Assembly: GCA_951802195.1 (NCBI GenBank)
Contig: OX637629.1
Span: 682,001 to 746,000 of the forward strand
Length of the DNA: 64,000 nt
DNA from: Tausonia pullulans
Lineage: Eukaryota > Basidiomycota > Tremellomycetes > Cystofilobasidiales > Mrakiaceae
Direction: 5' to 3'
Shown here: positions 33,401-54,958 of the stretch, one piece after another
Layout of the letters: each line of letters begins with the position of its first letter
How positions within the stretch are numbered: the stretch's first letter is position 1
Program-made: the position numbers and the translations under genes
Notes under the pieces: model-generated
Database searches by the model: none
Seen by the model: the letters and a program-made list of their open reading frames with translations, nothing else
What the model was told of the DNA's origin: nothing

Positions 33401-33640
33401 GGGAGGGCAATTCCCAAGGTGCGTCTTGGCAGTCTGTTTTCTGCACGAGAGTGTGTCTCATACCGCTTGCTCCCCAGGTACTTTGCCGCCGAGATCATTG
33501 GTAGCATGCTCGACCTTGAGCCACGCAAATGGCGCAAGCCGAGGCGCGTCGACCCCAAGAGAGACAAAGAACGTATCGACAAGTTTGTCAAGAGCTACGC
33601 TCCGTACGATTGGACGGGCATGTTGAAGGAACAAAAATGA
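30409..33640 (+). CDS. CWF19: CWF19-like spliceosome-associated protein
   Basis: Nine exons: 30409..30753, 30873..31166, 31301..31370, 31444..32261, 32324..32585, 32657..32871, 32934..33040, 33119..33418, 33478..33640; about 857 aa. An RD/RS- and Lys-rich N-terminus (DRSRDRDRESSSRSRSSKRD) is typical of splicing factors. The C-terminal half carries CwfJ_C_1: SCLFCPKE (Cys pair), AMGTRSYLSLTQTEEL, HVLIVPLQHTLTM and KPQKHSYIEAVPVPWDLFDD. CwfJ_C_2 follows: YFMVQWDYKGEKGYGHVIEG, then FPRYFAAEIIGSMLDLEP and DPKRDKERIDKFVKSYAPYDW. Homologues associate with late spliceosomes and the Drn1/Dbr1 lariat-turnover system. The middle is Gly/Ser/Pro-rich and disordered. Confidence 0.92.
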
Positions 33641-33970
33641 AGGGTTTGGGCCGAGGTTTCCGTGTATGTATTGCGTTGTTGAAAGTTGTCGTCTGTTTTC
33701 GCAATGTAAACATGTAACTGCTTTTTTGCTGTCCGATCTGAGCTTCATCTTGTGACGCCCCTCACGATCGAGGACGAGTGCGAGAAGGGAGAGCCAGGGA
33801 TAAATGGATCAAGGCTCAAGGGTACAGAAAAATACATCTCGCAAACCACAACAGATGGAAATTGACAGTTATGAGGAAACAAAGTATGGAGGGACAGGAC
33901 ATATATTGAAATGAAAGACAGAGCCTAGAGAGGAAGAATCTATGTGAGAAAAGGGAACGGCGTGCCATCG
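33641..33970. other. Convergent 3' region containing the left boundary of inverted arm A
   Basis: About 330 bp between CWF19 and PUF copy A stop codons. Sequence identity with the other arm begins abruptly at 33889, 82 bp beyond the PUF stop codon. No terminal inverted repeat or target duplication is evident at the junction. Confidence 0.5.
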
Positions 33971-36900
33971 TCATCGCCAGATGCTGCTGTCGAGATCCCC
34001 ACCGCCGAGGCCGCTGCTCCAGTTCATTCGCTGGTCGGGAGGAGCGCGGGTGTCCGTCAGAGGCTGAGGGACGGGTAGGCCACCGTCGCTGGTGAGGTAG
34101 GAATGAGCTGGAGGAGGAGAGAGAGAGGTCTGCGTTATAGAGGAGGAGGGAGTCGAGGAGGCTGCGGTGGACGACGACGGCCGAGGCACGAGGAGCGAGA
34201 GTGCGACCCGTCCGTGGGCGTTCTGGCGGATATGGTGAGCGTTTGAGTAGAGCTGGGTAGGGGCGACATACGTCAGCGAAAGCCGAAGCACCGCAGGACT
34301 GGATGAAAAGACTGACCGTCTTGCGGATGTGGGAGACCAGCTGCGTCGGCGCCTCATTCACGATGTGCTGGAGGAGCGCCACTCCTGCCGGGCACCGCAC
34401 AGAGTTGACGATAGAGGGCAGATGGGTCGAGCTGGCAAGGAAGAGAGACGGCCGCTTCAGTCAGCGAGCGTCGCTCGCGCAGCCAGCCAGCCAGCGATGC
34501 AACACTCACCCATCGCACACCCGCCCGACCCAGACTTCCCATTCGTCGTGGGAGAGAGAAGGGATACCGAGTGAGGCAGACATCGCCTGACGGTCCATGA
34601 GCGCCCCGTGGACGACTTCCGGCCCGGCGCAGAGCGGATCGACCGAGAGCAGGACGGCGAGAAGTGTCCGGGAGCGGAGGGTCGGGTGGGACAGGAGCTT
34701 GAGGAGGACGAAGCTGAAGAGTGCGAGATAAAGAGAGTCAGATGGGGATTGAGAATTGACGCGGAAGGCGGCACTCACGAGCCGTGCGAATGGGCGGCGA
34801 GGAGGTGGACGCCGTTCAAGAGCTGGGAGTACGGCGGTGGGCAGCCTGAATCAGCTCTGCGCGCTATTATGCCGATTGCCCGACTACTCACCTCGGTAAG
34901 GAAGTGGTGAGAGAAGTCCCCGTTATGCGGATAGAGCTCAATAAGATTCTGGACAACAAGGCAGCCGTTCTTGGGGGGGGGGGGGGGATGGGGAAGGCCG
35001 TTTCAGCGAAGGCATCCAGAGTGAGCGGGCTTCAACACAGACACACCCTCGCCAGCGCCAGATCGATCCACTGCCCATACATGACGGAAGCCAGCCTGGA
35101 AAAACGTGAGGTCAGCCTGTCTCTTCATGCCTCCCCACCGCAGTTCGACCTCTACTCACTTGGCATACACCGGCCGGACCTGCTCCCGCGAGCATCCCTT
35201 GAGGCATTGCTCCAGAACCCTCACCCCGCCCCGCTCTCCAAGAAACGCGAGTCCGTCGTCGAGCAAGGGGCCCGCAAGCTCCTCGGCGAGCCAGGCGCGC
35301 ATGTCCTCCCGCTGGATCATGTTCAGGACGACGTGCTGGCCATACTGGGCGGAAACGATCGACTTGAGGGCTGGCCTGGGTGAGCGGAAGGGATGGGAAG
35401 GGGGAGGGGAAAGGAGGTGGTAGATGGGGAGGTGGAAGGGACGAGAGCAGGGAGGTGGAAGGGACGAGAGCAGGGAGGTGGAAGGGACGAGAGCAGGGAG
35501 GTGGAAGGGACGAGAGCAGGGAGGTGGAAGGGACGAGAGCAGGGAGGTGGAAGGGACGAGAGCAGGGAGGTGGAAGGGACGAGAGCAGGGAGGTGGAAGG
35601 GACGAGAGCAGGGAGGTGGAAGGGACGAGAGCAGGGAGGTGGAAGGGACGAGAGCAGGGAGGTGGAAGGGACGAGAGCAGGGAGGTGGAAGGGACGAGAG
35701 CAGGGAGGTGGAAGGGACGAGAGCAGGGAGGTGGAAGGGACGAGAGCAGGGAGGTGGAAGGGACGAGAGCAGGGAGGTGGAAGGGACGAGAGCAGGGAGG
35801 TGGAAGGGACGAGAGCAGGGAGGTGGAAGGGACGAGAGCAGGGAGGTGGAAGGGACGAGAGCAGGGAGGTGGAAGGGACGAGAGCAGGGAGGTGGAAGGG
35901 ACGAGAGCAAGGGTAGGGGAGAAGAGAGCAAGGAGGGGCAGATCAGCGCCGGAGAGCAAGAGGGACGAGAGCGATGAGCAAGCCCTCACCTCATTGCATC
36001 AAATAGCGCACGGCGGACATCCGGGCCGCAGCCAAAGGCCGCCTGGATGAGATAGTTGCCCTGCGGACGCAGACAGAGTTCGACAGCTGCTGTAGCGACG
36101 ACGTTAAGGACGGCGACGACGCGTGGCGAATGCCGCTTCTCCTGGCTGATGATGTCCTGGGAGGTTCGGTCGTTAGGTGGTCAACCAGCAAGTCGGAGAC
36201 TGTGTACAGTCGATGACGTCGATGACTGACTGTGAGCGCCTGTGCCCCTCGGCGAAGAGCACCCTCCTTGGGCGCATACTGCTCCGACGAGGCAAGCAGT
36301 GTGACGAGCCACTCGACCCGGACATGGAACGCGTCGTCCGGGGTAGGTGTCCAAGGGAAGACATCCCGGTAGTCGATGAGCCCGCTGCAGACGGCGCGTG
36401 TGAAGCGCTCGGTCGGTTGCGACAGCTGGGGGAGGACGGAAGGCGAGTTAGAAGAAGCGCGGCCGAGCGAGCTTCAAACAAGACGCCAGGGACTCACCCC
36501 AGATGTTAAAGGTGTTATGGGCGGCAAGATGTCCCTCCAGGCGGCTTCGACAGAGGCATCGCCCGATCCCCACCCTCTCCTGGCGCTGCTGCCGGCAGGA
36601 GGTGAGAGATCTGCCCTTTCTGCTGCTGCTACCCCCGGAGGCGAACGGCGAGATCCGCCGCCGAGGGACGTTGACGCCGAGAACTTGAGCGCGAGGTTCT
36701 CCGCCTGGAGTGCCTCGATCTGCGAGCTGGCATCGCGGATGAGGAAGGAGAGCTGGAGGCGACGGCAGCATCAGCCTCTACTGGTTGGATATTCAGGCAG
36801 GCAGCCGACCACACACCTCCTCGACCCGCGAGAGCATGCCAAGGACAAGTGCGTCGTCCAAGAAGGCCGTCTTGAGCGAGAGGATGCTGAGCTCCTGTAG

Positions 36901-37635
36901 GAGGCCGGCCAGACAAGAAAGTAAATCCCGATCAGCACCTGGCTCTCTCAGTCTTCCTTCTTGCGTCCTCTTTCGACCCACACTCTGCGCCGTCGCCATC
37001 AGATGGGCCGGTGTCCCCGGTGGTGTGAGCACGACGTCGGACATCTCGCTCCCCGGGCTCGCGCCCTCGAGGTCGCCACCCTCGCAGAGAACCAACGACG
37101 GCACGCGCGGACGGTGTGGTGCTGTTGTCGTCGCCATTCCAGCATAGAGTGAATGAGCATCTCCTCCTGGTAGAGCGTAGTCGACATCGAGTGGGCCAGA
37201 CGACCGAGGAGGGGGACCCATGGAAGCGGCCTGCGCCTGCGCCTGCGCCTGCCAGAACGTCGCTCCGGTCGCTGGCGGCAGGCGTGCTCCATTGCTGTAC
37301 GCATGGGCGAGCGAGTAGGGCGTCGTCGTCTGAGCAGACAAGGGCAAGAAATTTGGCAGAGTCCCTCGGGCTGGTTGAAACAGGAGCGACGAGTTGGTGG
37401 GTGTGGCTGCTGGCGGCGGCTGCTGGCCGGCGGCGGCAGGCGAGAAGGCCGAGTCAAAGGGCGAGAACGCCGGCGAGGATGCCAACATGGCGGAGGCTGC
37501 CCCGGGCGACAGCGAGGGAGGAAGGCGAGGAGAAGGCGAGCGAGACGACGTCGACCAGCCGTTGATGGACGGCTGCGGAGTGTCGACCGTCGGGAGGGGG
37601 ATAGACATCCGACGGACGTCCGAGGGGACGGGCAT
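33971..37635 (-). CDS. PUF-repeat (Pumilio-like) RNA-binding protein, copy A
   Basis: Eleven exons: 37635..36817, 36752..36498, 36425..36231, 36156..35990, 35375..35160, 35095..35047, 34969..34892, 34822..34779, 34713..34510, 34431..34317, 34252..33971; about 807 aa. The first ~260 residues are disordered. A coiled-coil region follows (ELSILSLKTAFLDDALVL, LSRVEELSFLIRD). Armadillo/PUF-like helical repeats run from about 430 to 740: GNYLIQAAFGCG, SAQYGQHVVLNMIQRE, GGVRVLEQCLKGCSREQ, NGCLVVQNLIELYP, HSHGSFVLLKLLSH and CPAGVALLQHIV. Such proteins bind 3'UTRs and repress or localise mRNAs; the repeats are divergent, so the target is not predictable. The 614-bp fourth intron (35376..35989) carries the minisatellite. 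The predicted protein equals copy B. Its upstream neighbour is RMI1, head-to-head. Confidence 0.7.
34973..34987. repeat. G15 homopolymer (C15 on the coding strand) at a PUF-A splice acceptor
   Basis: On the sense strand the run is 15 C residues followed by AAG and then the exon coding NGCLVVQNLIELYP. It is therefore the polypyrimidine tract of that acceptor. Confidence 0.8.
35428..35910. repeat. 23-bp minisatellite, 21 units, in PUF-A intron
   Basis: Tandem array of a 23-bp unit, starting GGAGGTGGAAGGGACGAG on the + strand; units look identical apart from the last base of the last unit. Twenty of 23 bases are purines on +, so the PUF pre-mRNA carries the pyrimidine-rich strand. It lies wholly inside intron 35376..35989. 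The matching array in arm B has 27 units. Confidence 0.97.
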
Positions 37636-38074
37636 GGGATGGGAGAGCGCGCGAGGGGAGTGAAGGAGGGTGGGACGAGGAAGGAGTCGAGTCAAGGAGA
37701 ACGGCAGGTGGTGGTCGGGTGCTATGCTGCGAGAGAGAAGCCAGGGAGTTGCCGAGAACAGTCTGCCAGAGAAAGAAAGGGCCGACTCGAGGAGGAAGAC
37801 AGAGGAAGGGAGGCAGCACGGCTCGATCCGGGTTAGAGTTGGCCAAGGGCAATCCGAGAGTTTAGCTTCGCTCAACAAACGGAAGACGCAGAGGGAAGCA
37901 GGGGAAGACAATGACGACGCTCCCAGCCCTTGAGGATGGCGAACACCCAGAAGCTAAGACAACCTGTCAGCACTCAGACCAAAGTTAGTCAGGGCTCTCT
38001 GAATGGTCTCGTGGGAAGGAGGATGAATCGTGGGAGGTTGTTTGTTGGTCGGACTTAGCCGGGAGACAGGTGCG

Positions 38075-38516
38075 CCACATGGACAGGTCAAACTCTCCTC
38101 TCCTGCATGTTTCAATCAAAACTAGCTCCACTCATGAGGAAGTGCCCTTGGCCGTACATTAAAGAATGATTTGAAGCCAGGGAGCAGGAGAAGGTGCGTT
38201 GCAAATGATGGCACTGCGACGCCGATGGGCCCAGTCGCAGCTCGTAGTTTTCCAGGTACATGTCCTCTTCAGTCGGGAGGGAAATTCTCATTTTTATTAA
38301 GCTTGTTTGAGTCACTCAATTCTCGTGTTCAATCTTCACTTCGGTGTTCAAGGGGGTCGGTCGTCAAGCATCTCTCGCTGCTCGTCAACGGCACACGCGC
38401 CGAACATAGAAGGCTCAGAGTCGCGTCCTGCTGCCATCAATCAGAACCCCTTCCACTCCGTCGACCTCGCCACCTACGATCAGTGTGCGTCGGACAGGCA
38501 ATGGCTATCAATCACG
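38075..38516. promoter_or_regulatory. Unique sequence between arm A and RMI1
   Basis: About 440 bp. With the 439 bp inside arm A it forms the head-to-head intergenic region of PUF-A and RMI1. Arm B has different sequence beyond its matching boundary, so distal promoter elements of the two PUF copies differ. Confidence 0.45.
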
Positions 38517-40399
38517 ATGACCGCCCCAATCCTCGCCAACCTTCAGCGGCTCTACCCGTTGCCTCAGATCGATGAAGTGAGGCACGTCAGACCTTCTCCT
38601 GCCTTTCTACCGCTGATTCTCTTTTGTTGTCTCTCCGCGCTCCTCCGTCTGTCTTCATCTGCAGAACTGGATCTCCTCGTCACTGGCCTCCCTACTCGCG
38701 TCCTCACCGGGCCTCTCACTCGTCCGCCAGATTCAACAGCTCCACGCTGCCCTTCTCGAGTCCAACCTCTCCGTGTCCACCATCTCCCGGACGGGCTTTC
38801 CCCCAGGCCTTGGACCCACCGAAGAGGGTGTCGAACCTCTCCACCGCGTTAACTGCTTTGTTGAACCCAAGCGGTGCTGCCTCGTCCAGATTGTCAGTCT
38901 AACTGAAATCGGCGCTTCAGCGGGGTCTCTTCAACGGACACTGGAGGAGCGACGCGAGGCCGGGTCTGGAAGGGCGCGCATCCGGCCTCTGGAAGGAGAG
39001 GAGATGAAAGAGGAGGCGGACGAGGATGAAAATGGGCCGAAGTACTCGAGAGGGATGCTCAGGATGGAGGTGTCAGATGGCCACTCGGTGTGCAAGGTGG
39101 GCCTGCCTATATGCGTTCTGCTCCGTGGGGGGGATGACTGACAAGAGGTCTCTCTGTCCAGGCCATCGAGTATCGCCGGATTGACGCTCTGCGCTTAGGC
39201 GAGACTCAGCTCGGTTGCAAGGTGACTGCATCAATCCTTAGCGACCTGCCGGTTAGTCCATCGGCTGAGGCGTTGTCCCCACCCAGCTTGTCCTTAAGAA
39301 CGTCCCTGTACTTCAAGGCATCCTCCTCCTCACTCCCGAAAACTGTACCGTCAAGGGCTCTCGCATCCCAGCTTTTGAAGATGACGGCCGTGGCGAGGCG
39401 GCATTCGAGGCTGGCCTGAGGGAACGGCTTGGGCTTGTCGAGCTTCTGCCTGCGGGGCCTCCTGGTTTTGTTCCTGCTGATGCCACTGATGGAAAGGAGA
39501 GAGCCAGGGAGGACGATGAAGAGGAAGAGTACATGCCTGAGGGATTCGCGATCATGGCGAACGACGCATCTCCACTCCCTCTTCGTCCTCCTCGTCCTCG
39601 TCCTACACCTCACCCTCCCGATCATCGGCGCCCGCCATCGTCACCACCTCGTGCTCGCCCATCAAAACGTAACCATTCAGCACTCCAGCCGAAGTCCAAG
39701 CCAGCCTACGTCGAGATCGACTCGGACGACGAGATGTACAGAGACGACGAGATCGAGGCGGCGCTCGCGGTCGAGGCAGCGGCAGCGACGACTGGAGCAC
39801 AACAGGCCCAGGCGCGTCGGCGAACTGCTATCGCTGCTCCTGCCCTGCTAGTGATGGGAAAGGAGCAAGACGTAGTGGAAGTCATTACGGAGCTTCAGTA
39901 CTCGAGCGATGTCGAGATGTACGAGCCAGAGGAGGGGAATTCACTGAGGAAGGAGCAGAATACTGCCGCCACTCCCAACGTCAACGCCAATGGCAGCCTC
40001 ACCTCGCCCGTTCTCGAGAAACGGCTCGCCTTGCCCGCATCGTCCTCCTCGGCGTGGCCGCCTTCCTTGAGCGGGACGGCATTGAACAGCAGACGCCAGC
40101 TACCACCCCCGCTACCGCCATCGTCGGTGTTCCTCGACAAGCACAAAACCGCCGGGAACCCGTGGGGGTCATTGATCTCAGCGTCGCCCTCCGTGGCTTC
40201 GGGCTCGTCTCAGACGAAGATACAGCAGTCGCCAAAGTCGCAGCTGCCCCACCGCTCGCTCCCTCCACCTTCGTCGTCGGGACCTTCGTCAACGGCGTCG
40301 TCCTCGACTGCCCCTGTTGCTGCTGGAGGAGGAAGAGAAAGGAAGAAGGCGCCACCAACGAAGGATGAGGAGGTCATTGACATTTCGGATTCTGATTGA
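38517..40399 (+). CDS. RMI1: RecQ-mediated genome instability protein RMI1
   Basis: Four exons: 38517..38576, 38665..39096, 39162..39221, 39287..40399; about 554 aa. It starts MTAPILANLQRLYPLPQIDE followed by NWISSSLASLLAS, the helical N-terminus of RMI1. The OB-fold core is clear: CLVQIVSLTEIGASAGSLQ, YSRGMLRMEVSDGHSVCKAI, EYRRIDALRLGETQLGCK, LVLKNVPVLQGILLLTPENC and VKGSRIPAFEDDG. The C-terminal ~300 residues are disordered and acidic, ending EVIDISDSD, perhaps a SUMO-interacting motif. RMI1 joins topoisomerase III and the BLM/Sgs1 helicase to dissolve double Holliday junctions and limit crossovers. It sits inside the spacer of the inverted duplication. Confidence 0.85.
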
Positions 40400-40541
40400 T
40401 GAGAAACTTTCTCTGTGTGCTGAATTGAAATGGATCACCCCATTTCGTACTATGTTCTCTCCCAATCGAGCAAAACAACCCTGCTCCCTGCCTCCCTATC
40501 ATCCCTTATCCACCTCGCACTTCCCTCAACTCACACAACCC

Positions 40542-42134
40542 TCACTGAATGATGACCATCCAAGCCACTGGAACGAAAACGCCCAGAATCAACACCTTTT
40601 TTCTCTCGCATGTCCGCCAGCGTGTCCACTCACAGATGAAGTAGAACAAAAACAGCGGGTACACTGCGAGTAGCCTCCTTGCGCTCGCGAGCTTGACGCC
40701 CGACATGAAATTGACGCTCGCCCAGACGGCCCAGGCGACGGCTGCGAGCGAGACGGGGACGCGGACGAAGAGGGAGTGGAGAAAGAACGAAATGATGGAG
40801 GAGAGGAGGAGTGGGGCGACGCAGTAACCGAGAGCGCAGAGGGACTGGAAAAAGGAGCTGCGTGAGGGCAGAAAGGGTGTGAGTGAGCTTGATAATGCGC
40901 AGCTGGTTGATGAGGAGAGGAGGAGGGCGTACACCTTGCCTCCGAGAAGCTTGGCGTTGACGGTGACGACGACGGAGCCGATCGTGACGAGGGAGATGAC
41001 AGTCGAAAACGCCTGGATCGACTGAGCTGGAGGAGCCTATGATATAGGCAGAGAGAAGATGTTCAGCGCTGGATCATAAGACAGCGGCTCTCCTCCTTGA
41101 TATGCTGCTTTAATGGAGATCCTGGGATGGATAAGGGCAGAGGAAAAGAAGACGGCGCGCGTGCTCTGGGACGCGACCTCCGAGCCTTGATCCAGGTTCG
41201 AGTGAGGACAAGAGGTCGCGCAGCGATGTAGCTGATTTAAATCTGGGGGAGGGTCGATGCCAGGACCGATGATTCTAGGTCGAGACTAGTAGACTCTCCC
41301 GTCGGGCTGCAGGGAGGGGACATCGAGCTGCAGACGTCGGGAGCACGACGCGTCGACTTGCAACGACCGCACAACCCGTCGCCATGAGCAGTCCCAGAAC
41401 CCTCCAACCTTATCTATCTTCTCGACAAGCGGCAGTTGGATGCGAACTTACATCGATGGAGAGCACAATGGCGAGGGCGAGACAGATGACGAGAGGACCC
41501 CAGAGATCCCACTCCTTGAGTAGATCCTGCGAGCCCTGCGAGTTGGATGATTGTCTCGGCGGGTAAAGGACCTGGAGGAGCTTGGCGTAGATGGACTTGA
41601 GGTCTCGGAGCTAGATGATAGTAGGGCGAGAGCTCAGTCGGGCCGAGTCTGAACGCTAACGAGTCTCGGCAACGAACGATGGTCTCCGATACAGGCTCGT
41701 CCAGCGTGTTGGCTCCCGTGTATCTCTGGAAAACGCACAACCATACAGACGCAGATAATATCAGTTATCAGTTGAACCCTAGCAGCACCTAGAGCGAGGG
41801 GGGGCGGGGGCGCGTGCTGACCGTCTCGACGCGGAAGCCGCCGACGGTGCTCCTTTGAGGGGCGCTGCTTGAGCCTATCCGTCCAGCGAGCGGGTTAGGT
41901 ACGGCGGCTGGTGCTGCAGAGGAAGCCGCCGGCGAGGAAGATGGGCCTGGGGAGCGCGAAGTAGATGGCCCAGGCTGGGTAAATGACAGAACGTCGTCGT
42001 CGTCGTCCTAGGAGGAGCGACGCGACGGTGCGAGGCCATCAGGGAGAGGTTGGAGACGGTGGTCAGCGGAAGAATGCATGTCGAGGTCATTGTGTCGTGG
42101 TGCTCACGGCTTGGATGAGAGTCGGGGCGGCCAT
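40542..42134 (-). CDS. YIP4: YIP1-family Golgi membrane protein (Yip4/YIPF6-like)
   Basis: Seven exons: 42134..42108, 42007..41822, 41725..41678, 41610..41452, 41036..40933, 40857..40634, 40567..40542; about 257 aa. The cytosolic N-terminus ends GGFRVETRYTGANTLDEPVS, then the DLKSIYAKLLQVLYP and LLKEWDLWGPLVICLALAIV blocks typical of YIPF6. Several hydrophobic segments follow: ISLVTIGSVVVTVNAKLLGG, SFFQSLCALGYCVAPLLLSS, VSLAAVAWAVWASVNFM and LAVYPLFLFYFILAWMVIIQ. About five membrane spans are expected. Members act with Ypt/Rab GTPases in ER-Golgi traffic. Exon 5 uses the donor at GGT|GTACGC, giving the conserved GGKVSFFQ join. Intron 41037..41451 (415 bp) is long for this window. Confidence 0.88.
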
Positions 42135-43079
42135 AGCAAAGGTCGATGGAGAAGCAAGGTGGGGGTTGAGGGTGCTTGCTACGCGCTGAGAGATCTCGTC
42201 TCGCCCGCTCGCGCGTCAACGCCGGGCCCGTGCACTTGCCCGCTCTCACGCGGATGCACGAGCACGCCCAAGCCGGCGCTGACGACCCGCCTCCGCCCAA
42301 ACGCCCACCACCTCCACCGACCTCATACTCTTTCGCCTGGCGCCCACCTCACCCATCAGCTCGGCCCCTTTCTAGTCTTACACCCAGGCCTAGATCATTT
42401 CTGGTTCGACCGACCTTGGACCGTAGAAGGCGCGGTGGTCCCCTTGCTTCCCTCTCGACCTTCTACCGAGCATCGTCCCGCCCACCCCCTCGTGTTGGGT
42501 GCTCGTCTTCCTCCCTCTCTTCTAGCGTGAGTAATATTTGCCCTGCTTCTAGATATCCCTTACAAGTTCACTCGCCCTGCCTACCGTGCTGGCCGATCAT
42601 GAATGGCGACTTCATCCCTTCGTCCACTCGAGGCCGAGCGACTCTCTCCCTCGAGACTGCGTCATTGACCTCGGCGCCACGAGCTAGATGGCGCCACGAG
42701 CTAGATGGCACTCCCTCAACCAAGTCGCTTCAGAGAGCCTTTGGAAGCTCCTCTGTCTGCACTGGCTTATCTCCCCGAACGAAGGGTTCTCACAGCGATT
42801 CCTTCTCGATCCGCCTGACTCGAGACTTGAGTACGAACGGGCGAGCACGGATGAGCTTCTGCCGAGTCTCGGTTCGCCATGTCCGTAGAGCAAACCGACT
42901 TTGCAATCCTCCTCCGGACTGTTGTACCTGCTTCTCAGAGCATGAAGAGGGAAGAGAGGGGGCAGGCTCGCGCACTGACCGATCTCACGATCCCTCTCGC
43001 TTGTCTCCTCACTCCCCTTTGCTCGTGATAACGACTGACATTCCCTCTTCATATCAATCAGACGCTACCTCATATCACC
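42135..43079. promoter_or_regulatory. Divergent region YIP4 / MGM1
   Basis: About 945 bp between divergent start codons. It has long open frames on + but no supported exon. A 17-bp direct duplication (GCGCCACGAGCTAGATG, near 42674-42707) is visible. The MGM1 frame is open upstream of its ATG but lacks conserved sequence. Confidence 0.4.
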
Positions 43080-46000
43080 ATGATTCGCCCTCGTCGTCCC
43101 CCGCCCCGCTTTCCGATTCTTTCCCCCCAGATCCGGTCCTTCGTCGTACCCCTCCGGCGACCAATCTCGTCCCCCTCATCGCCACCTCTCCGGCTCATCG
43201 GCCCTCCATCGCGTGCGGTCTCGTTCAGTTTTGGTACAGTTGGCCGTTTGATCAGCAAGTCGATTCGGATACCCGTCACGGGCGTTGCTGTCGGAGGAGG
43301 CGCAGCAAGCGCAGCGGCGTACCAACTCGACTGTGAGTGCCCGCCAACACTCGCCACTAGAACGCGCGACTTACGATTTCCCACGACTTACGAAACAGCC
43401 TTCCGCAACACGGCCACCTCATGGGTCACAGAGTTCACCGACCAAGTCTCTTCCGCGAGCTCGGCCATCTTTGACTCTGCCTCGGACGCTGTCTCGTCAC
43501 TCTCGTCGTCCCTTGGCCAGCTCAAAGACGCACTTCCCACCTCGCCAGCGGACATCTCCACCCCGGACTGGGTCCGCTCATTCACGCAGTGGTTCAATGA
43601 GGGTAGCGCCGGTGGGTCCGAGGCGCCTCCCCCCGAAGGAACGGGCGAGCCGAGCGGCGGGGGGGTCCCGCCTCCCGCTCCCCCAGCCGTCGGTGTCGCC
43701 CTCGCGGGCCTGTCAGTTGCCACGGACACGGACTCCGAGGAGGAGTCTGAGGAGGGTACCGAGGAGCAAATGAAGGGAGACGAAGTAGGCTTCCAACAGC
43801 TTACAAAGAAGCTCATCGAGATCCGGCAGGTCTTGCTATCGATTGACCAGTCCGACAGCCTCAAGCTGCCAAGCATTGTCGTCATTGGAAGTCAGAGCTC
43901 AGGGAAGAGCAGTGTACTTGAGGCCATCGTCGGTCATGAGTTCCTTCCCAAGTGAGTGGCTAAAGTCAAGCGCAGGGCGGCGGGGAGCGAGTGTCGAGCC
44001 AACTGACATCCATTGAGTCGCCTCTTTTCTTCCCTGCCCTTCGCAGGGGCGATAACATGGTTACCCGTCGACCGATCGAACTCACCCTCATCCACACGCC
44101 TCCGACAGCAGCCAACCCGAACCCCAAGGAGTACGGCTCGTTCCCCTCGCTCGGCATCACTCGGGTTACGTCGTTCTCCTCTATTCAAAAGACGCTCACG
44201 GAGCTTAACCTCTCTGTACCGGCCTCGGAGGCGGTTTCAAACGACCCGATCGACCTCCGGATCTACTCGCCACACGTCCCGGATCTCACGCTCATCGACC
44301 TCCCAGGTTACATCCAGATCTCTTCGATGGATCAGCCACCGGAGCTCAAGGACAAGATTGCGGGTCTCTGCGAGCGGTACATCCAGGAACCCAATATCAT
44401 CCTCGCCGTCTGCGCTGCGGACGTCGACCTCGCCAACTCGCCAGCACTCAAGGCCTCGAGGGAGGTCGATCCCTTGGGGCTTCGGACGATTGGTGTCGTC
44501 ACTAAGATGGATCTCGTCCCCCCGACGATTGGGGCAGGCATCCTCCAGGGCAATCGGTACCCTCTCCACCTCGGATACATTGGCGTCGTCTGCAAGGCCG
44601 TCAAGGCTGCCAACACGGACAAGGCAGGCTTGACCGGGGCTGTCTTGAGGCGGGAGCAGGACTACTTTGGCGGGGAGAACGCCGTCATTTTCCGGAACCG
44701 GAGCAAGCCGCTCCTCGTCGGCACCGACACGCTCCGCAAAAGGTTAATGGCTGTCCTTGAGACGAGCATGGCGAGCAGTCTCTACTCGATCACAAATGCC
44801 GTCCAGCTTGAGCTTGAGCAGGCGACGTACCAGTTCAAGGTCCAGTACAATGACCGTCGAGTCTCGCCCGAGTCGTATGTCGCCCAATCGCTCGACACGC
44901 TCAAGAACACGTTCCGGACGTCAGCGGCCCAATTCTCCAAGCCGAAGATCCGGGAGAAGCTCAAGGCGAGGCTCGACGACAAGGTTCTCAATATCCTCGA
45001 GTCTATCTACTGGGCGGACCCGAGAACGGCGGAGCTCTCGACGCTTGCGAGCCAGTCGGACCTCACTCCTGAGGAGCTTGATTCAGTCTGGCAGCACAAG
45101 CTTGAGACCGCCCAATCGCTGCTCACTAAATCTGGTGTGGGAAGGGACTCGACGACCATGGTCGCCGATGGACTCCGTCAGCTCATAGACGCGCTCGCGA
45201 CGTCCGATCCATTTGGATACCATGCAAGCTCGGCGGAGAAGCTCGTCCAGTTCTCGCATCGAATTCTGAGGGACCGGATCCCCATCACATCAGACCAAGT
45301 CGAGAACTGCATCAAACCGTACAAGTATGAGGTCGAGGTCGACGATCGCGAATGGGAACTCGGGCGGGCGAGGGCGGAGGAGCTGCTTGAGCGCGAAGTC
45401 GGGCTGATGGAAGGCAAGCTGGATGAGATTCGGAGAAAGGTTGGCGGGCGGAGGACACTCGATGGTCTCGTGCGGTATGTTGCCGAGGTGGAGCGGGAGA
45501 AGCGAGACATGGCAAAGCGAAAGCAGGAGAGAATGCGACGAGGGGAGGAGGATCTCAATGAAACGGTGCCTCCGCCGGATCCCTACCGCTACAACGTCGC
45601 GCATCTCGCCGAAGGTAAATCCCGTCTCCCCTGTTCTGATCAGATGTAACGATTAGACTGAGCTCCTCCCTCTTCTTCAGCCCGAATGGCCCTCCTCTTC
45701 CAGGATCGGCTCGCGATCGTCAAGCTCCGGAAGCGTGCCCTTCGCTCCAAGCGATGCAAGGCTGGTCCGGACGAGAAAGCGTTCTGCCCCGAGGTGTTCC
45801 TGAACGTCGTCGCCGATAAGCTCGCCTACACCTCGGTCATGTTCATCAGTTAGTCGATCGCACAAAGGTCCTTTTGTCCCTGAAGACGACGAACGAGGCT
45901 GACTGTCCTTCTGGCTGCTACAGACGTCGAGCTCCTCGACCCCTTCTTTTACCAGTTCATCAACGGCGTCGATACTGGTCTCCGGCCGGATCTCATCGTC

Positions 46001-46238
46001 CGTATTTGTTACTTTCTTCCCCCATTCTTGCCTACATTGACGTTTTGTTCCTTCCCAGAACGACCCCTCGTTCGCGCGTGAGAACCCGGAAATTCAAGAG
46101 CACCTCGACCTTCAGGAGCGTAAGGACAAGCTCGAGAAGGTCATGGCTTCCCTCCAAAGTCTTATCAACCTCCGCCAGGACTCGAGCTCGAGTGGGACGG
46201 GCGAGGAGAAGAGGAAGGGCGTCTTTGGGCTGTGGTAG
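43080..46238 (+). CDS. MGM1: Mitochondrial inner-membrane dynamin-like GTPase MGM1 (OPA1/Msp1)
   Basis: Six exons: 43080..43332, 43399..43951, 44047..45614, 45681..45848, 45924..45997, 46059..46238; about 931 aa. An Arg/Pro-rich presequence ([19 protein letters not shown]) leads to a membrane segment around [18 protein letters not shown]. The dynamin GTPase follows: G1 [19 protein letters not shown] near 245, G2 [11 protein letters not shown]3 LIDLPGYIQ near 355 and G4 VVTKMD near 424. Then come middle/paddle and GED-like helices ending in [20 protein letters not shown]. Mgm1 fuses inner membranes and shapes cristae after rhomboid processing. The 66-nt intron 43333..43398 is in frame, so retention would add 22 residues just after the anchor. 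The centre of the inverted-repeat structure (about 44277) falls in this gene. Confidence 0.94.
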
Positions 46239-47024
46239 AGTTCTTTTCCCGCGACGGACTAGTGCTTTTTTTTTTCTTTTGTCTCCCACCTCTCACGTTC
46301 GTCCTTTGTCTGCTTGCTGCGTTTGATACTCCTCAGGATCACGACACATTAACGCGTGCTGCAAGCTCTTCTAGTTTGATGAAAATTGCCTTAAGTCCGC
46401 CTTGAATAGGACTGTCCCTGGCCCTCTGGGGACCTTCCTTCGGTGCGTACAAACCTGTCCATGTCCTATCTTTCCTCATGGCCATCACCTCCCCTTCTCA
46501 TTTAGGCGGGATGACAGCTTCTTGAACTGAGCATTGGACTCGAGGCTGGATGGAGGGGAAGGAAGAGGGTTTGGCTTACCTGATTGATTGATTGGATAAG
46601 TCTCAATCATAATTCATGTCTGCATCGACCGAATGCGCACACAATAGCGAAGCGAGCTCGCAAGAGACATTGTGATTCGAGCTCGTCTTGGAGGGATAGA
46701 AGTACCGTCTAACATCGCGCCCTACCGCTCGATGTCTTGTGTTTGGAGCTCCCGGAATAAGCCGGCGCAGTGGACGTAGCGATGGTTGACAAGCCCGCCC
46801 CACGTGTTGATGATGAGCGTTGGTGACCCACCGCGCTCGCGGGAAGCGCAGTCCTATTAGTTCGCAGCCGTCTGCAATGAGAAGCGAGCACAATCAGTGA
46901 TAAGCCTAGGAGCATCAAGCCCAGAGGAGTTTGCGCACGTCTGGGAGGACCTGTCCTCAGAAGTGAGAGACCGCGCTGTGGTGAATCCGAGGCGACAACG
47001 ACGTGTCGCCATCGATCAACCTCC
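46239..47024. other. Convergent intergenic region, nothing recognised
   Basis: About 790 bp between MGM1 and MED22 stop codons. Contains T-rich stretches after 46265, a TGAT microrepeat near 46583 and short chance frames on the minus strand. No tRNA boxes or homology recognised. Confidence 0.4.
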
Positions 47025-47843
47025 TCAATCCAGGTCTACAACCACCTCCGCCTCGGTGTCGTCTCCCGCCGGGCCTGCCTCCTTGACGTCCGTCTCCATT
47101 TCCGGCTCCTTCCCCCATTCCTTCATCTCCTCATGTTCCTTCTCCTGCTCCTCCCCTTTGTCGGCCATGTTCCCACCATTGCTCGATGTGGCCTCCTCCG
47201 CCGTCAGTTTCGACGCATCCTCCCCTTCCCTCTGCTCCTTTCCTCCCAATGCATCGTCGCTCTTCTCTACCCCCTTCCCCTGCTTCTCCTCCTCCTTTTC
47301 CTCCTCCGTCTTCTCGGGCATCGTCTTTTCAGCCACCCCACTGGAAAGAAGCGCTTGGATCTCCTGCTTGAGCTCCAGTACCTCACGCTCCAAGTCCTCT
47401 CTCTCCCCTTCAGCAGGGGCTTCTCCCTGTTGCCGCCGCTGGACGGCTCCTCGAGCAAGCAGGACTAGCTTGAGGTCTTGACTTGTTCGGAGGAGACCTT
47501 GTGCAGCGCGCATGAGGTCGTTCTGAAGGAGAGGGAGCGAGAGCTGAGCAAGCGTAGGGCGGTCTTCCGTCTGTACTCAAGTTCGTGGGTGGATCAGGAA
47601 TGAGAGCAGCGGGAGAAGATTGGGAAGCAAGCAAGTAAGATGACGCACGGAGAAGGATCCGACGAGCTCAGAGAGCCCTGAAGCGAGGAGGCTGATGTCG
47701 CCGTCGATGAGGACGTTCCACTTCTCCTCGGCTTGGGCGATGTAAGTGTCCGGGTCGTGCTCGGCGCCGCTGCCGGAGGGCTTGCTGAGAGACGTGCTGC
47801 CGCTGGGGCTCGTGAGGGTAGGAGCGGCTGGGCGAGAGGCCAT
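47025..47843 (-). CDS. MED22: Probable Mediator subunit MED22 (Srb6-like) with acidic tail
   Basis: Two exons: 47843..47649 and 47570..47025; about 246 aa. After a short Ser/Pro-rich start, YIAQAEEKWNVLIDGDISLL and ASGLSELVGSFS join across a phase-0 intron to TEDRPTLAQLSLPLLQNDLM, RAAQGLLRTSQDLKLVLLAR. This two-helix pattern, with the LIR-AA-LL-x-L-x-LK-LLLL type ending, is that of MED22, a Mediator head subunit bridging activators and RNA polymerase II. The normal family length is ~120-140 residues. Here a coiled-coil and a ~90-residue Glu/Lys-rich tail ending EAEVVVDLD are added. The family is short and divergent, so this is a moderate call. Confidence 0.62.
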
Positions 47844-48145
47844 CGCGGTGGGAGGCTAGATGAGTGATGATGGTTGAGGGGCGAAGGGAGGAGACAGATC
47901 GCGTTCGCATTTCGATTAGAGCTGGCGTTGTCAAGTGGCGGCGCCTCTTACCCCCTTGGTAACGACCACGCTCCGGCTCAATACGCCGACCATTTTAGCC
48001 ATCCCGGCCGGCGGCCAGAGGGGGGCGGGGGACGTTCTGTTCTCGCTCTCTTTCTCCCTTCAATCCACGAGCGCACCTCTCTCCGCTCGACCCCTTCAGC
48101 TCTCGCCTGTTGGACGAGAGGCGCACCCTTCCCTTCCCATCCGCC
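47844..48145. promoter_or_regulatory. Divergent promoter region of MED22 and the 48146 gene
   Basis: About 300 bp between two divergent start codons; GC-rich, with a T/C-rich run just before 48146. No specific site recognised. Confidence 0.4.
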
Positions 48146-50223
48146 ATGGCGCCCTTCGACGACCTCATTCCCTTGGGCCAACCGCTCTCACGCCCACTCT
48201 CACTCCCAGTCTCGCCGCACCGCGGACGCGAAGGTGGCGCCGACCTCTATGGCGCGTTGGATGACAGTTTGCGGCCTCGCTCGGTAGATGCGAGGTACAG
48301 GGACGTCAGGATTGATGCGGACCTGCTTGTGAGTGGTGATTTATATTTCTGTGGGACGCAAAGGAAAGGGAGAGGCGAGAGCAGGGCAACGCCATCTCCT
48401 TCGCCGTATTCCTCGGAAGAGAGAGCGAGCGTCCTAAACGTTGTCCATGCACTCACTCTCTGAATGGGAAGCGCTGTTATTTGGAACTGGCACGGACGTA
48501 TCAGTGGGGCCTGCCCGACTGACCTCTCGTCTCTCCGCACCCTCTTTCACTTCAGTCTTCAACTGAAACCTCAGCGCCGTCGGCACCAGAGCCGCCCGTC
48601 GTGTCTCTTCCCTCCTCTTCTTCCTCAGAACCCAGTCGGCCTCCCCCTCGCTCAAGGGCCCGCCCTCCTCCTCTTGCGCTTGTCTATGCGGCGTCAGCGA
48701 CGATGGCATCCAAAGAAGACCCATTGGTCTCTGCAGACGACGGAGGCGACGCGGAAGATAGCGACTCCGCGATCAAGCGGTCAGTGGCTGATGGTGACGA
48801 TCTCGAAGCCGCCGGAGCCGAAGGATCCGACAGGCCCGCGACGATGCCTTCCGCATCCGGCACTCTCGCTGGAGGCCGCGACAGTCCCCAGGCAAAGATC
48901 GCCTCCAGAAACAGTAGCATCAAGCCAGGTGCTACGATTTCTTCCCCCCTGTTGGAGAAAGCTGCTCCTCTGGATGACGCCGAGTCGACGCTTGCGGCCG
49001 CCGTCCGCGTCCCGCTGCCGGTCGAGGGCAGAGATGAAGATGTTCTCGACAGCATTGCGCCCACCAACACGAAGGAGGAGAACGAGAGAGCGGTCTCTCC
49101 CGCTCCGATGCCTGCCTTGGCCTCGATCGTCTCGCCTCCTCCCAGGACGTCGTCATTGCCCCCTTCGCCGCGCAGAGAGTCCGCCCTCGCCTCGTCGCCC
49201 AATACCAGTGGCTCCTCGCCCAAGATCACCCCTGGGCCCTTCCATTCGCCAACGACATGGAAATTTTCGGTCTCCACGCCTCCAACGCCCAAAAGTCCAC
49301 CTCTTCCTCCCGGCCTCGACCCATCTGGGCCCGTCCCGAAACGGCGCGCCTCGTCGGGCGTTTACACCCCACCGACGTACCCAGGGCCTCTGGGCGGAGC
49401 GAGAAGAAACTCTTCGATTCCGAACGAAACTGGGCAGCCATCCCAGCCCGCATCTCCGGCAATGCAGCGCAAGTCTTCAGGCTTCTATCTCGGGCTCGGC
49501 TTCTCCTCGCTCTCGTCAGCCACGCCGGCCGGCGGCGCCACCCCTCCCTCCATATTGACTCCCTCTCCCTCGACAGCCGCCGCCCCGGGGGTCCTCACGC
49601 GAGGCCGCTCCTATTTTGCTTCTCTCTCTCCCGCCTCAAGCTTCTTCTCCTCTCCAAACACCGCGTCGCCGACTATCTCCACCCCTTCTCCGATCTCTTC
49701 GCCTCTCACCGGCTCCCTTTCGGTCTCGGGGGTGTACACGCCGGCGACCTTCTATTCCTCTCAGCAGGTCCGCTCGCCCTCAATGTGCCGAAGCGTCAGC
49801 GGGCCCAGCGGCCCCTTCCTCGCCTCTCCCATGTCGGACTTCCCCACGTCTTCATTTGCAGCGTCGTCCACCCCTCCGGTTGCCCCGACCCTCGCCATCC
49901 CTCGTAAACCAGCCCCGGCATGGAAACCCATCCCTGTTTACTCCGGCACACCCTCTCCCGACGATGCCGAGGCATCTATGTCCGTTTCCGGCAGTAGCGA
50001 AGCGAGCGCCGAGCATGACAGCGGCTCAACCCCCGCTACGCCTCCCGTCGGGGCCTGGGCCCCGCCGATGGCGCTTGAGACGACGACGTCAGCATCTCCG
50101 GCTTCAGCGCAGACTTCGTCTAGTTGGTGGGGGCGAGGTGCGGGTGTCGGCGGGAAGACGATGCGTGTCGTCGAGGTCAGTGAAGATGGCCTCGGCAAGG
50201 GCGACAGTGGGAGGGTGTTTTGA
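48146..50223 (+). CDS. Ser/Pro-rich disordered protein, function unknown
   Basis: Two exons: 48146..48328 and 48556..50223 (227-bp intron, GTGAGT/TTCAG, phase 0); about 616 aa. It begins MAPFDDLIPLGQPLSRPLSL. The only compact-looking part is near residues 35-60 (DLYGALDDSLRPRSVDARYR, DVRIDADLL). The rest is low complexity: Ser/Pro/Thr-rich with many SP and TP sites (TPPTPKSPPLPP, STPSPISSPLTGS) and a conserved-looking RxSSGVYTPPTYP-like motif that recurs as GVYTPATF. That pattern is usual for phosphorylated cell-polarity or signalling scaffolds, but no domain is recognised. Codon usage looks like that of neighbours. It is the last gene of the spacer; arm B starts 257 bp after its stop. Confidence 0.65.
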
Positions 50224-50918
50224 GCAATTTCCATTTCTCTGCTTATCCTTCTCATGGACACTCTGTCTTTTCATTTACTCTTTATTTCGGGCAGTCTCTC
50301 TTTGTGGGACATTATTATCCTCTGTACCCAGTCCTTTATCATATCCTCCGTCGGCCCCTCCCTTCACTATTTTACGATCACCTCGGTACCTATGCAACTG
50401 CATTTCTAGCTATCATGCTGCTGTTATGGCGCGACCGGGCAGCTACAGAGATGAACAGGAAGAGAGCGACAGAGCACCTCGCACCTGTCTCCCGGCTAAG
50501 TCCGACCAACAAACAACCTCCCACGATTCATCCTCCTTCCCACGAGACCATTCAGAGAGCCCTGACTAACTTTGGTCTGAGTGCTGACAGGTTGTCTTAG
50601 CTTCTGGGTGTTCGCCATCCTCAAGGGCTGGGAGCGTCGTCATTGTCTTCCCCTGCTTCCCTCTGCGTCTTCCGTTTGTTGAGCGAAGCTAAACTCTCGG
50701 ATTGCCCTTGGCCAACTCTAACCCGGATCGAGCCGTGCTGCCTCCCTTCCTCTGTCTTCCTCCTCGAGTCGGCCCTTTCTTTCTCTGGCAGACTGTTCTC
50801 GGCAACTCCCTGGCTTCTCTCTCGCAGCATAGCACCCGACCACCACCTGCCGTTCTCCTTGACTCGACTCCTTCCTCGTCCCACCCTCCTTCACTCCCCT
50901 CGCGCGCTCTCCCATCCC
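50224..50918. promoter_or_regulatory. Region upstream of PUF-B with the arm B boundary
   Basis: About 700 bp. 50224-50479 is unique, probably the 3' region of the disordered-protein gene. From 50480 the sequence is the reverse complement of arm A, so only 439 bp of PUF upstream sequence is shared by the two copies. Confidence 0.5.
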
Positions 50919-53900
50919 ATGCCCGTCCCCTCGGACGTCCGTCGGATGTCTATCCCCCTCCCGACGGTCGACACTCCGCAGCCGTCCATCAACGGCTGGT
51001 CGACGTCGTCTCGCTCGCCTTCTCCTCGCCTTCCTCCCTCGCTGTCGCCCGGGGCAGCCTCCGCCATGTTGGCATCCTCGCCGGCGTTCTCGCCCTTTGA
51101 CTCGGCCTTCTCGCCTGCCGCCGCCGGCCAGCAGCCGCCGCCAGCAGCCACACCCACCAACTCGTCGCTCCTGTTTCAACCAGCCCGAGGGACTCTGCCA
51201 AATTTCTTGCCCTTGTCTGCTCAGACGACGACGCCCTACTCGCTCGCCCATGCGTACAGCAATGGAGCACGCCTGCCGCCAGCGACCGGAGCGACGTTCT
51301 GGCAGGCGCAGGCGCAGGCGCAGGCCGCTTCCATGGGTCCCCCTCCTCGGTCGTCTGGCCCACTCGATGTCGACTACGCTCTACCAGGAGGAGATGCTCA
51401 TTCACTCTATGCTGGAATGGCGACGACAACAGCACCACACCGTCCGCGCGTGCCGTCGTTGGTTCTCTGCGAGGGTGGCGACCTCGAGGGCGCGAGCCCG
51501 GGGAGCGAGATGTCCGACGTCGTGCTCACACCACCGGGGACACCGGCCCATCTGATGGCGACGGCGCAGAGTGTGGGTCGAAAGAGGACGCAAGAAGGAA
51601 GACTGAGAGAGCCAGGTGCTGATCGGGATTTACTTTCTTGTCTGGCCGGCCTCCTACAGGAGCTCAGCATCCTCTCGCTCAAGACGGCCTTCTTGGACGA
51701 CGCACTTGTCCTTGGCATGCTCTCGCGGGTCGAGGAGGTGTGTGGTCGGCTGCCTGCCTGAATATCCAACCAGTAGAGGCTGATGCTGCCGTCGCCTCCA
51801 GCTCTCCTTCCTCATCCGCGATGCCAGCTCGCAGATCGAGGCACTCCAGGCGGAGAACCTCGCGCTCAAGTTCTCGGCGTCAACGTCCCTCGGCGGCGGA
51901 TCTCGCCGTTCGCCTCCGGGGGTAGCAGCAGCAGAAAGGGCAGATCTCTCACCTCCTGCCGGCAGCAGCGCCAGGAGAGGGTGGGGATCGGGCGATGCCT
52001 CTGTCGAAGCCGCCTGGAGGGACATCTTGCCGCCCATAACACCTTTAACATCTGGGGTGAGTCCCTGGCGTCTTGTTTGAAGCTCGCTCGGCCGCGCTTC
52101 TTCTAACTCGCCTTCCGTCCTCCCCCAGCTGTCGCAACCGACCGAGCGCTTCACACGCGCCGTCTGCAGCGGGCTCATCGACTACCGGGATGTCTTCCCT
52201 TGGACACCTACCCCGGACGACGCGTTCCATGTCCGGGTCGAGTGGCTCGTCACACTGCTTGCCTCGTCGGAGCAGTATGCGCCCAAGGAGGGTGCTCTTC
52301 GCCGAGGGGCACAGGCGCTCACAGTCAGTCATCGACGTCATCGACTGTACACAGTCTCCGACTTGCTGGTTGACCACCTAACGACCGAACCTCCCAGGAC
52401 ATCATCAGCCAGGAGAAGCGGCATTCGCCACGCGTCGTCGCCGTCCTTAACGTCGTCGCTACAGCAGCTGTCGAACTCTGTCTGCGTCCGCAGGGCAACT
52501 ATCTCATCCAGGCGGCCTTTGGCTGCGGCCCGGATGTCCGCCGTGCGCTATTTGATGCAATGAGGTGAGGGCTTGCTCATCGCTCTCGTCCCTCTTGCTC
52601 TCCGGCGCTGATCTGCCCCTCCTTGCTCTCTTCTCCCCTACCCTTGCTCTCGTCCCTTCCACCTCCCTGCTCTCGTCCCTTCCACCTCCCTGCTCTCGTC
52701 CCTTCCACCTCCCTGCTCTCGTCCCTTCCACCTCCCTGCTCTCGTCCCTTCCACCTCCCTGCTCTCGTCCCTTCCACCTCCCTGCTCTCGTCCCTTCCAC
52801 CTCCCTGCTCTCGTCCCTTCCACCTCCCTGCTCTCGTCCCTTCCACCTCCCTGCTCTCGTCCCTTCCACCTCCCTGCTCTCGTCCCTTCCACCTCCCTGC
52901 TCTCGTCCCTTCCACCTCCCTGCTCTCGTCCCTTCCACCTCCCTGCTCTCGTCCCTTCCACCTCCCTGCTCTCGTCCCTTCCACCTCCCTGCTCTCGTCC
53001 CTTCCACCTCCCTGCTCTCGTCCCTTCCACCTCCCTGCTCTCGTCCCTTCCACCTCCCTGCTCTCGTCCCTTCCACCTCCCTGCTCTCGTCCCTTCCACC
53101 TCCCTGCTCTCGTCCCTTCCACCTCCCTGCTCTCGTCCCTTCCACCTCCCTGCTCTCGTCCCTTCCACCTCCCTGCTCTCGTCCCTTCCACCTCCCTGCT
53201 CTCGTCCCTTCCACCTCCCTGCTCTCGTCCCTTCCACCTCCCTGCTCTCGTCCCTTCCACCTCCCCATCTACCACCTCCTTTCCCCTCCCCCTTCCCATC
53301 CCTTCCGCTCACCCAGGCCAGCCCTCAAGTCGATCGTTTCCGCCCAGTATGGCCAGCACGTCGTCCTGAACATGATCCAGCGGGAGGACATGCGCGCCTG
53401 GCTCGCCGAGGAGCTTGCGGGCCCCTTGCTCGACGACGGACTCGCGTTTCTTGGAGAGCGGGGCGGGGTGAGGGTTCTGGAGCAATGCCTCAAGGGATGC
53501 TCGCGGGAGCAGGTCCGGCCGGTGTATGCCAAGTGAGTAGAGGTCGAACTGCGGTGGGGAGGCATGAAGAGACAGGCTGACCTCACGTTTTTCCAGGCTG
53601 GCTTCCGTCATGTATGGGCAGTGGATCGATCTGGCGCTGGCGAGGGTGTGTCTGTGTTGAAGCCCGCTCACTCTGGATGCCTTCGCTGAAACGGCCTTCC
53701 CCATCCCCCCCCCCCCCCCAAGAACGGCTGCCTTGTTGTCCAGAATCTTATTGAGCTCTATCCGCATAACGGGGACTTCTCTCACCACTTCCTTACCGAG
53801 GTGAGTAGTCGGGCAATCGGCATAATAGCGCGCAGAGCTGATTCAGGCTGCCCACCGCCGTACTCCCAGCTCTTGAACGGCGTCCACCTCCTCGCCGCCC

Positions 53901-54721
53901 ATTCGCACGGCTCGTGAGTGCCGCCTTCCGCGTCAATTCTCAATCCCCATCTGACTCTCTTTATCTCGCACTCTTCAGCTTCGTCCTCCTCAAGCTCCTG
54001 TCCCACCCGACCCTCCGCTCCCGGACACTTCTCGCCGTCCTGCTCTCGGTCGATCCGCTCTGCGCCGGGCCGGAAGTCGTCCACGGGGCGCTCATGGACC
54101 GTCAGGCGATGTCTGCCTCACTCGGTATCCCTTCTCTCTCCCACGACGAATGGGAAGTCTGGGTCGGGCGGGTGTGCGATGGGTGAGTGTTGCATCGCTG
54201 GCTGGCTGGCTGCGCGAGCGACGCTCGCTGACTGAAGCGGCCGTCTCTCTTCCTTGCCAGCTCGACCCATCTGCCCTCTATCGTCAACTCTGTGCGGTGC
54301 CCGGCAGGAGTGGCGCTCCTCCAGCACATCGTGAATGAGGCGCCGACGCAGCTGGTCTCCCACATCCGCAAGACGGTCAGTCTTTTCATCCAGTCCTGCG
54401 GTGCTTCGGCTTTCGCTGACGTATGTCGCCCCTACCCAGCTCTACTCAAACGCTCACCATATCCGCCAGAACGCCCACGGACGGGTCGCACTCTCGCTCC
54501 TCGTGCCTCGGCCGTCGTCGTCCACCGCAGCCTCCTCGACTCCCTCCTCCTCTATAACGCAGACCTCTCTCTCTCCTCCTCCAGCTCATTCCTACCTCAC
54601 CAGCGACGGTGGCCTACCCGTCCCTCAGCCTCTGACGGACACCCGCGCTCCTCCCGACCAGCGAATGAACTGGAGCAGCGGCCTCGGCGGTGGGGATCTC
54701 GACAGCAGCATCTGGCGATGA
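50919..54721 (+). CDS. PUF-repeat (Pumilio-like) RNA-binding protein, copy B
   Basis: Eleven exons: 50919..51737, 51802..52056, 52129..52323, 52398..52564, 53317..53532, 53597..53645, 53723..53800, 53870..53913, 53979..54182, 54261..54375, 54440..54721; about 807 aa, same predicted product as copy A. The ATG at 50919 (MPVPSDVRRMSIPLPTVD) is the first in frame after upstream non-ATG codons. Exon 4 ends FDAM(R) at 52564 and exon 5 resumes with PALKSIVSAQYGQHVV, so the 752-bp intron 52565..53316 removes the minisatellite. Reading straight through it would hit TGA at once (ATG AGG TGA). Downstream lies a Nudix gene in convergent orientation. Nothing suggests that one copy is decayed. Confidence 0.7.
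52644..53264. repeat. 23-bp minisatellite, 27 units, in PUF-B intron
   Basis: Same unit as in arm A on the opposite strand, 621 bp in 27 copies. The six-unit excess over arm A is the entire length difference between arms. Three units are 69 bp, so six-unit change leaves all frames unaltered. Confidence 0.97.
53705..53719. repeat. C15 homopolymer at a PUF-B splice acceptor
   Basis: Fifteen C residues followed by AAG at the start of the exon coding NGCLVVQNLIELYP (53723). Same length as its partner in arm A. Confidence 0.8.
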
Positions 54722-54958
54722 CGATGGCACGCCGTTCCCTTTTCTCACATAGATTCTTCCTCTCTAGGCTCTGTCTTTCATTTCAATATATGTCCTGTCC
54801 CTCTGTAAGATTTTTTTTCTGTTTTTGTAACTGTCCTTGTGAGAAGAATATCTATTTATTGTTCCTTCCTCTCCCTTGATTCCTACGCACGCAATCCTCC
54901 CAAGCCAGCCGGGAAGAAAGGCAGCGCTCGCAGCAAGCTCGCCGCTCGCTCCACTCAA

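Follow-up and report, generated by a model that had tools for sequence, protein, structure and literature searches.

A complete PUF-like gene is present twice, in mirror image, in the 64,000-bp stretch of DNA analyzed here (the window, C10:682001-746000, on a contig of 1,242,235 bp), with a single-copy block of 12.4 kb between the two copies. It is highly probable that this is a real and recent duplication, at the DNA level, of one complete gene, and our leading, still tentative, reading of the layout is that of a scar left by a small 12.4-kb inversion through staggered breaks. The elements of the layout are as follows.

33889..38074, minus strand: arm A, 4186 bp, inverted duplicate with a complete PUF-like gene
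38075..50479, no strand: spacer, 12,405 bp, single-copy, the proposed inverted segment
50480..54803, plus strand: arm B, 4324 bp, arm A reverse-complemented, with six extra 23-bp units

The original prediction, made from the letters alone, held that the arms are reverse complements without substitution, and an exact comparison of arm A with the reverse complement of arm B bore this out. Both share a prefix of 2021 bases and a suffix of 2648 bases; together these make 4669, or 483 more than arm A measures, and 483 is the length of the arm A array, so that removing 138 bp from arm B yields arm A, with zero substitutions (0 of 3703 non-array sites). An exact reverse-complement match of 4.2 kb lies far beyond chance. 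The identity reaches the terminal base at both ends, and outside it neither the outer nor the inner flanks (300 and 1000 bp) gave an alignment above the best of 100 shuffles, the outer flanks scoring near the shuffle maxima (23 and 27; shuffle means 18 and 22, shuffle maxima 27 and 29). A search of the own genome (23.86 Mb) found the arm twice. Within the 264 kb of contig C10 compared by megablast (word size 20), counting repeats of at least 80 bp and, inside 33800-55000, rows of at least 2000 bp (the rest being the array against itself), there was no other near-identical pair of comparable size; smaller repeats were present.

The length difference of 138 bp had been attributed to six minisatellite units, and TRF gives precisely this, with 21 units in one arm and 27 in the other. 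A C15 tract, said to be the same in both arms, does have 15 bases in each.

35427..35909, minus strand: intronic minisatellite, copy A, 21 units of 23 bp, 100% matches (TRF)
52645..53265, plus strand: intronic minisatellite, copy B, 27 units of 23 bp, 100% matches (TRF), inside intron 52565-53316
34973..34987, minus strand: homopolymer of 15 in an intron, copy A, C on the gene strand
53705..53719, plus strand: C15, copy B, in intron 53646-53722

When the 23-bp unit was searched in the genome with up to 2 mismatches, 48 of 48 matches fell in the two arrays, and the reversed-pattern control gave 0. Folding of four array units as DNA gave no structure. The PUF intron array, in its two copies, is the only TRF array in the sampled 264 kb (55 TRF rows) whose period is at least 9 and whose copy number is at least 6. 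Elsewhere in the window, a run of 22 C at 23169-23190 exceeds the length of the tracts in the arms. The unequal arrays (21 versus 27 units) provide a simple PCR marker for strain surveys.

Each arm had been expected to carry a complete PUF gene, and a splice model made by hand agrees, with 11 exons, an open frame of 807 residues and a PUF score above the cut-off. The automatic predictor split the PUF gene at the 752-bp intron and added false introns.

33971..37635, minus strand: copy A of the PUF-like gene, mirroring copy B (11 exons, 807 aa); the automatic prediction has the same start and stop
50919..54721, plus strand: PUF-like gene, copy B, hand-made splice model, 11 exons, 807 codons, open throughout
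50919-51737, 51802-52056, 52129-52323, 52398-52564, plus strand: exons 1-4 of copy B, hand-made splice model
53317-53532, 53597-53645, 53723-53800, 53870-53913, plus strand: exons 5-8 of copy B, hand-made splice model
53979-54182, 54261-54375, 54440-54721, plus strand: exons 9-11 of copy B, hand-made splice model

The ten introns of copy B are all GT-AG, nine of them of 64-78 bp and one of 752 bp that holds the array, and all 10 are kept in both arms. Since the arms are identical outside the intron array, both gene copies are intact. The model (start 50919, stop end 54721) also agrees with the abrupt boundaries originally placed 439 bp ahead of the coding region and 82 bp past its end.

The predicted protein is a divergent member of the PUF family, its whole-protein Pfam PUF score (34.4 bits) being above the curated cut-off of 26.3. 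It resembles the PUF (Pumilio) RNA-binding proteins in this score and in its matches to solved structures, as 16 solved relatives include Pumilio 1, Pumilio 2, PUF3 and PUF4. It differs from them in that no single repeat (0) passes alone and in that the best alignment, to Pumilio 1, covers residues 81-265 of a 380-residue piece, i.e., part of the domain. We call it divergent because it was missed by the Pfam PUF search of the own genome, whose seven listed matches fall on C7 (five) and C19 (two), and because its own domain as query finds the two arms only: 16 of 16 matches were located there, and the PUF matches of C7 and C19 were absent. When residues 250-740 were used to look for homologous proteins, 8000 candidates were scored and none reached an E value of 0.001.

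The genes of this organism are intron-rich and have roughly 60% G+C, which, together with the STE3 gene described below, suggests a basidiomycete. A search for aromatic lyase found none. Neighbors are predictions, obtained with a simple predictor trained on the 264 kb and with Pfam; one of the predictor models (17787-21576) has a two-base first exon and lacks a proper start codon.

30409..33640, plus strand: CwfJ-like gene (left neighbor), complete model, ends 248 bp before arm A
38517..40399, plus strand: RMI1-like gene (RMI1_N_C), predictor and Pfam, divergently oriented from PUF copy A
40545..41036, minus strand: open frame with a Yip1 domain (Pfam), exon of a gene of unsettled limits
42254..46081, plus strand: MGM1-like dynamin GTPase gene, predictor and Pfam, both model ends uncertain
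48447..50223, plus strand: Ser/Pro-rich gene, no Pfam match, upstream of PUF copy B and in tandem with it
54959..56333, minus strand: NUDIX-domain gene (right neighbor), low-scoring model, ends 155 bp after arm B
57283..58709, plus strand: annexin gene, predictor and Pfam

Each PUF copy ends towards a convergent neighbor, the CwfJ-like gene for copy A and the NUDIX gene for copy B. All four arm edges lie between predicted genes, so that no neighbor is visibly broken and the edges are silent on which of the copies is the older.

The spacer, predicted to be unique, was searched in the own genome as two halves, each of which was found once in full; the second half had, in addition, one 119-bp match (73%) on C5. 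The outer flanks (ca. 5 kb each) have one full copy each, the right one with four further matches of 66-71 bp on C1. The single-copy spacer and the difference between the arrays had been put forward against a simple artefact, and they retain this weight. An assembly artefact, with one copy placed twice, two haplotypes merged or differing copies made alike by polishing, would explain the zero substitutions between the arms, but we consider it very unlikely: the arrays differ in length, the spacer and the sampled flanks are single-copy apart from those short weak matches, both contig ends carry terminal arrays, and the genome search turned up one STE3 gene. A fold-back read would be expected to give neither a single-copy spacer nor a second single-copy flank, and a fold-back palindrome was rejected because of the 12.4 kb of single-copy DNA between the arms.

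Of the three options first considered (a very recent event, continuing gene conversion or an artefact), the very recent event is the best supported, with identity to the terminal base and nothing beyond. An old inverted pair whose identity gene conversion has maintained, perhaps while the spacer flipped repeatedly, seems scarcely probable, even slightly less so than an artefact. Inverted arms of 4.2 kb can recombine, and the arrays themselves are homogeneous; however, diverged margins would be expected, and here the identity extends to the last base at both ends, with no similarity above shuffles outside. A recent event thus fits better than long gene conversion. At an assumed mutation rate of 3e-10 per site per generation, the 95% upper bound for the age of the two copies is 1.35 million generations (0.41 million at 1e-9 and 4.05 million at 1e-10). 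The length of the 15-base homopolymer does not differ between the arms either. This makes the locus an unusually fresh case, in which a second intact gene copy and its near upstream DNA, derived from one event, can be seen before any substitution.

Inverted duplicates of otherwise single-copy DNA are found here at both ends of one segment, which is the layout of a staggered-break inversion. A single original PUF-like gene would have been bracketed by two nicks in opposite strands, ca. 4.2 kb from each other, which, with a clean break ca. 12.4 kb away, would have freed a segment that was then joined back the other way round. Filling in of the long single strands at the staggered end would have copied the gene, and the inverted block, with the RMI1-like, Yip1, MGM1-like and Ser/Pro-rich genes, would now have a mirror-image gene at each end. 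The ends would have been joined bluntly, as in non-homologous end joining, and the later change would be limited to the intron array (21 versus 27 units). The inversion of the spacer with respect to the ancestor, the staggered break and the order of events are what we infer. We put staggered breaks first because they give exactly this layout in one event and because the published cases resemble it; the mirror orientation and the closeness of the copies then need no further assumption.

These published cases come from Drosophila. Two papers (PMC3355041, PMC5080602) give a single-copy block flanked on both sides by mirror-image copies as the mark of a staggered-break inversion. In D. mojavensis, a stagger at both breakpoints left inversion 2q with inverted duplicates of 4.3 kb and ca. 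1 kb, and inversion 2h has an inverted duplicate of 7.1 kb, one copy of which has since been cut to 2.7 kb; in D. subobscura O8, the gene Prosbeta2R2 is found at both breakpoints and derives from one staggered breakpoint of the old arrangement (PMC3355041, PMC5080602). As far as these accounts go, the fly inversions (D. mojavensis 2h and 2q; D. subobscura O4 and O8) share with our locus the inverted duplicates at both segment ends, the size (4.2 kb here), the whole gene and, for O8, the one-sidedness. The present case differs from them in being probably fungal, in its short segment of 12.4 kb, which would be inverted, and in its zero substitutions. A limited literature search for fungal parallels showed no direct one among the papers listed, and the two papers that it brought up for yeast and fungi name a fly and maize in their titles. 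The duplication is very probably of an already known type, and a fungal case of staggered breaks would add to the fly examples. If the spacer were found to be inverted in relatives, the locus would show in a fungus what PMC3355041 and PMC5080602 describe for flies, an inversion that duplicates a gene as a by-product.

The new junctions have 0 or 1 bp of microhomology in each of the four ancestral layouts (arm at A or at B, spacer kept or inverted). Such near-blunt junctions fit end joining in general and hence a captured insertion too. An insertional inverted duplication, in which the spacer was never turned and a second copy of the gene went in, reversed, at a distance of 12.4 kb (by replication template switching or end-joining capture of a fragment), is a serious possibility, somewhat less probable than the inversion, whose margin over it is small. 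Its final layout would be identical; all four edges are intergenic, and the empty site would leave neighbors 411 or 690 bp apart, which is in the usual range. Template switching, however, usually leaves microhomology at the junctions, and those found here (0 bp for layout H1; 0 and 1 bp for H2) fall short of the few bases characteristic of MMBIR. MMBIR-type inverted duplications are thus similar in having a mirror-image copy near its source and different in their junctions, which have at most 1 bp of microhomology here. Furthermore, the closeness and mirror orientation of an inserted copy would be coincidental unless the event was replication-based. Intergenic distances favored no layout, being ordinary in all four; this comparison used 63 predicted genes with a score of >15 (PUF halves merged) and gaps of 0-3000 bp (12 convergent, 11 divergent and 25 tandem).

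Mobile DNA was also considered. Abrupt edges would suit a transposon-borne or retroposed copy, but this is extremely improbable: the introns are kept, inspection by eye shows no inverted-repeat relation between the arm ends, target-site repeats measured from flank to flank come to 0 bp at A and 1 bp at B, and the genome has no further copies. A transposable element was rejected, with no terminal inverted repeats, target-site duplication or several copies, and so was retroposition, as all 10 introns are present in both arms. The absence of a transposon signature claimed for the arm boundaries was confirmed.

Both gene copies retain the 439 bp before and the 82 bp after the coding region, and therefore both may be expressed, in which case the dose would be doubled. 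The 4.2-kb arms could also permit flipping of the 12.4-kb block. Switches that work by inversion between inverted repeats are known, for example, in the mating-type switching of methylotrophic yeasts. Our locus is similar in that the inverted arms could flip the segment between them; it differs in that the arms hold a whole gene plus near upstream DNA, in that one orientation is known, from one assembly, and in that the nameable spacer genes (RMI1-like, Yip1 and MGM1-like) are of the housekeeping type. The only TRF array of its kind in the sampled 264 kb sits inside the only large near-identical repeat there, and the intron array may be a break-prone trigger. The full scenario, in which this array triggered the staggered-break inversion, a post-transcriptional regulator was doubled in one step and the arms let the RMI1-MGM1 block flip in living populations, seems unlikely.

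The one STE3-type pheromone receptor gene found in the genome is located at C14:628845-629869; it appears as two matches side by side, and the in-frame stops within them are what introns would produce. Having found one such gene suggests a haploid genome. A mating-type receptor locus at the arms was rejected, since this gene is on C14.

Both ends of contig C10 carry arrays of a 13-bp unit, with 15 exact units on the left and 12 on the right, each within about 200 bp (the outermost ca. 215 bases). This terminal unit (TGGGTCGGTAGGT / ACCTACCGACCCA) stands in place of TTAGGG, the repeat reported for Rhodotorula pacifica and Salmacisia. A telomere-like unit of this length looks unusual in a probable basidiomycete, and a limited literature search showed no direct parallel for it among the papers listed. 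Two-unit exact matches number 448 in the genome; among the 100 of them listed, C1, C2 and C4 have clusters at their start and C1 to C5 have clusters at high coordinates, the one on C5 being at the contig end. In addition, dispersed repeats of 93-435 bp with 84-98% identity are found on C10 at ca. 546,900-548,000 and 593,700-598,500, two clusters ca. 46 kb apart and ca. 84-135 kb to the left of the window, and are perhaps mobile elements.
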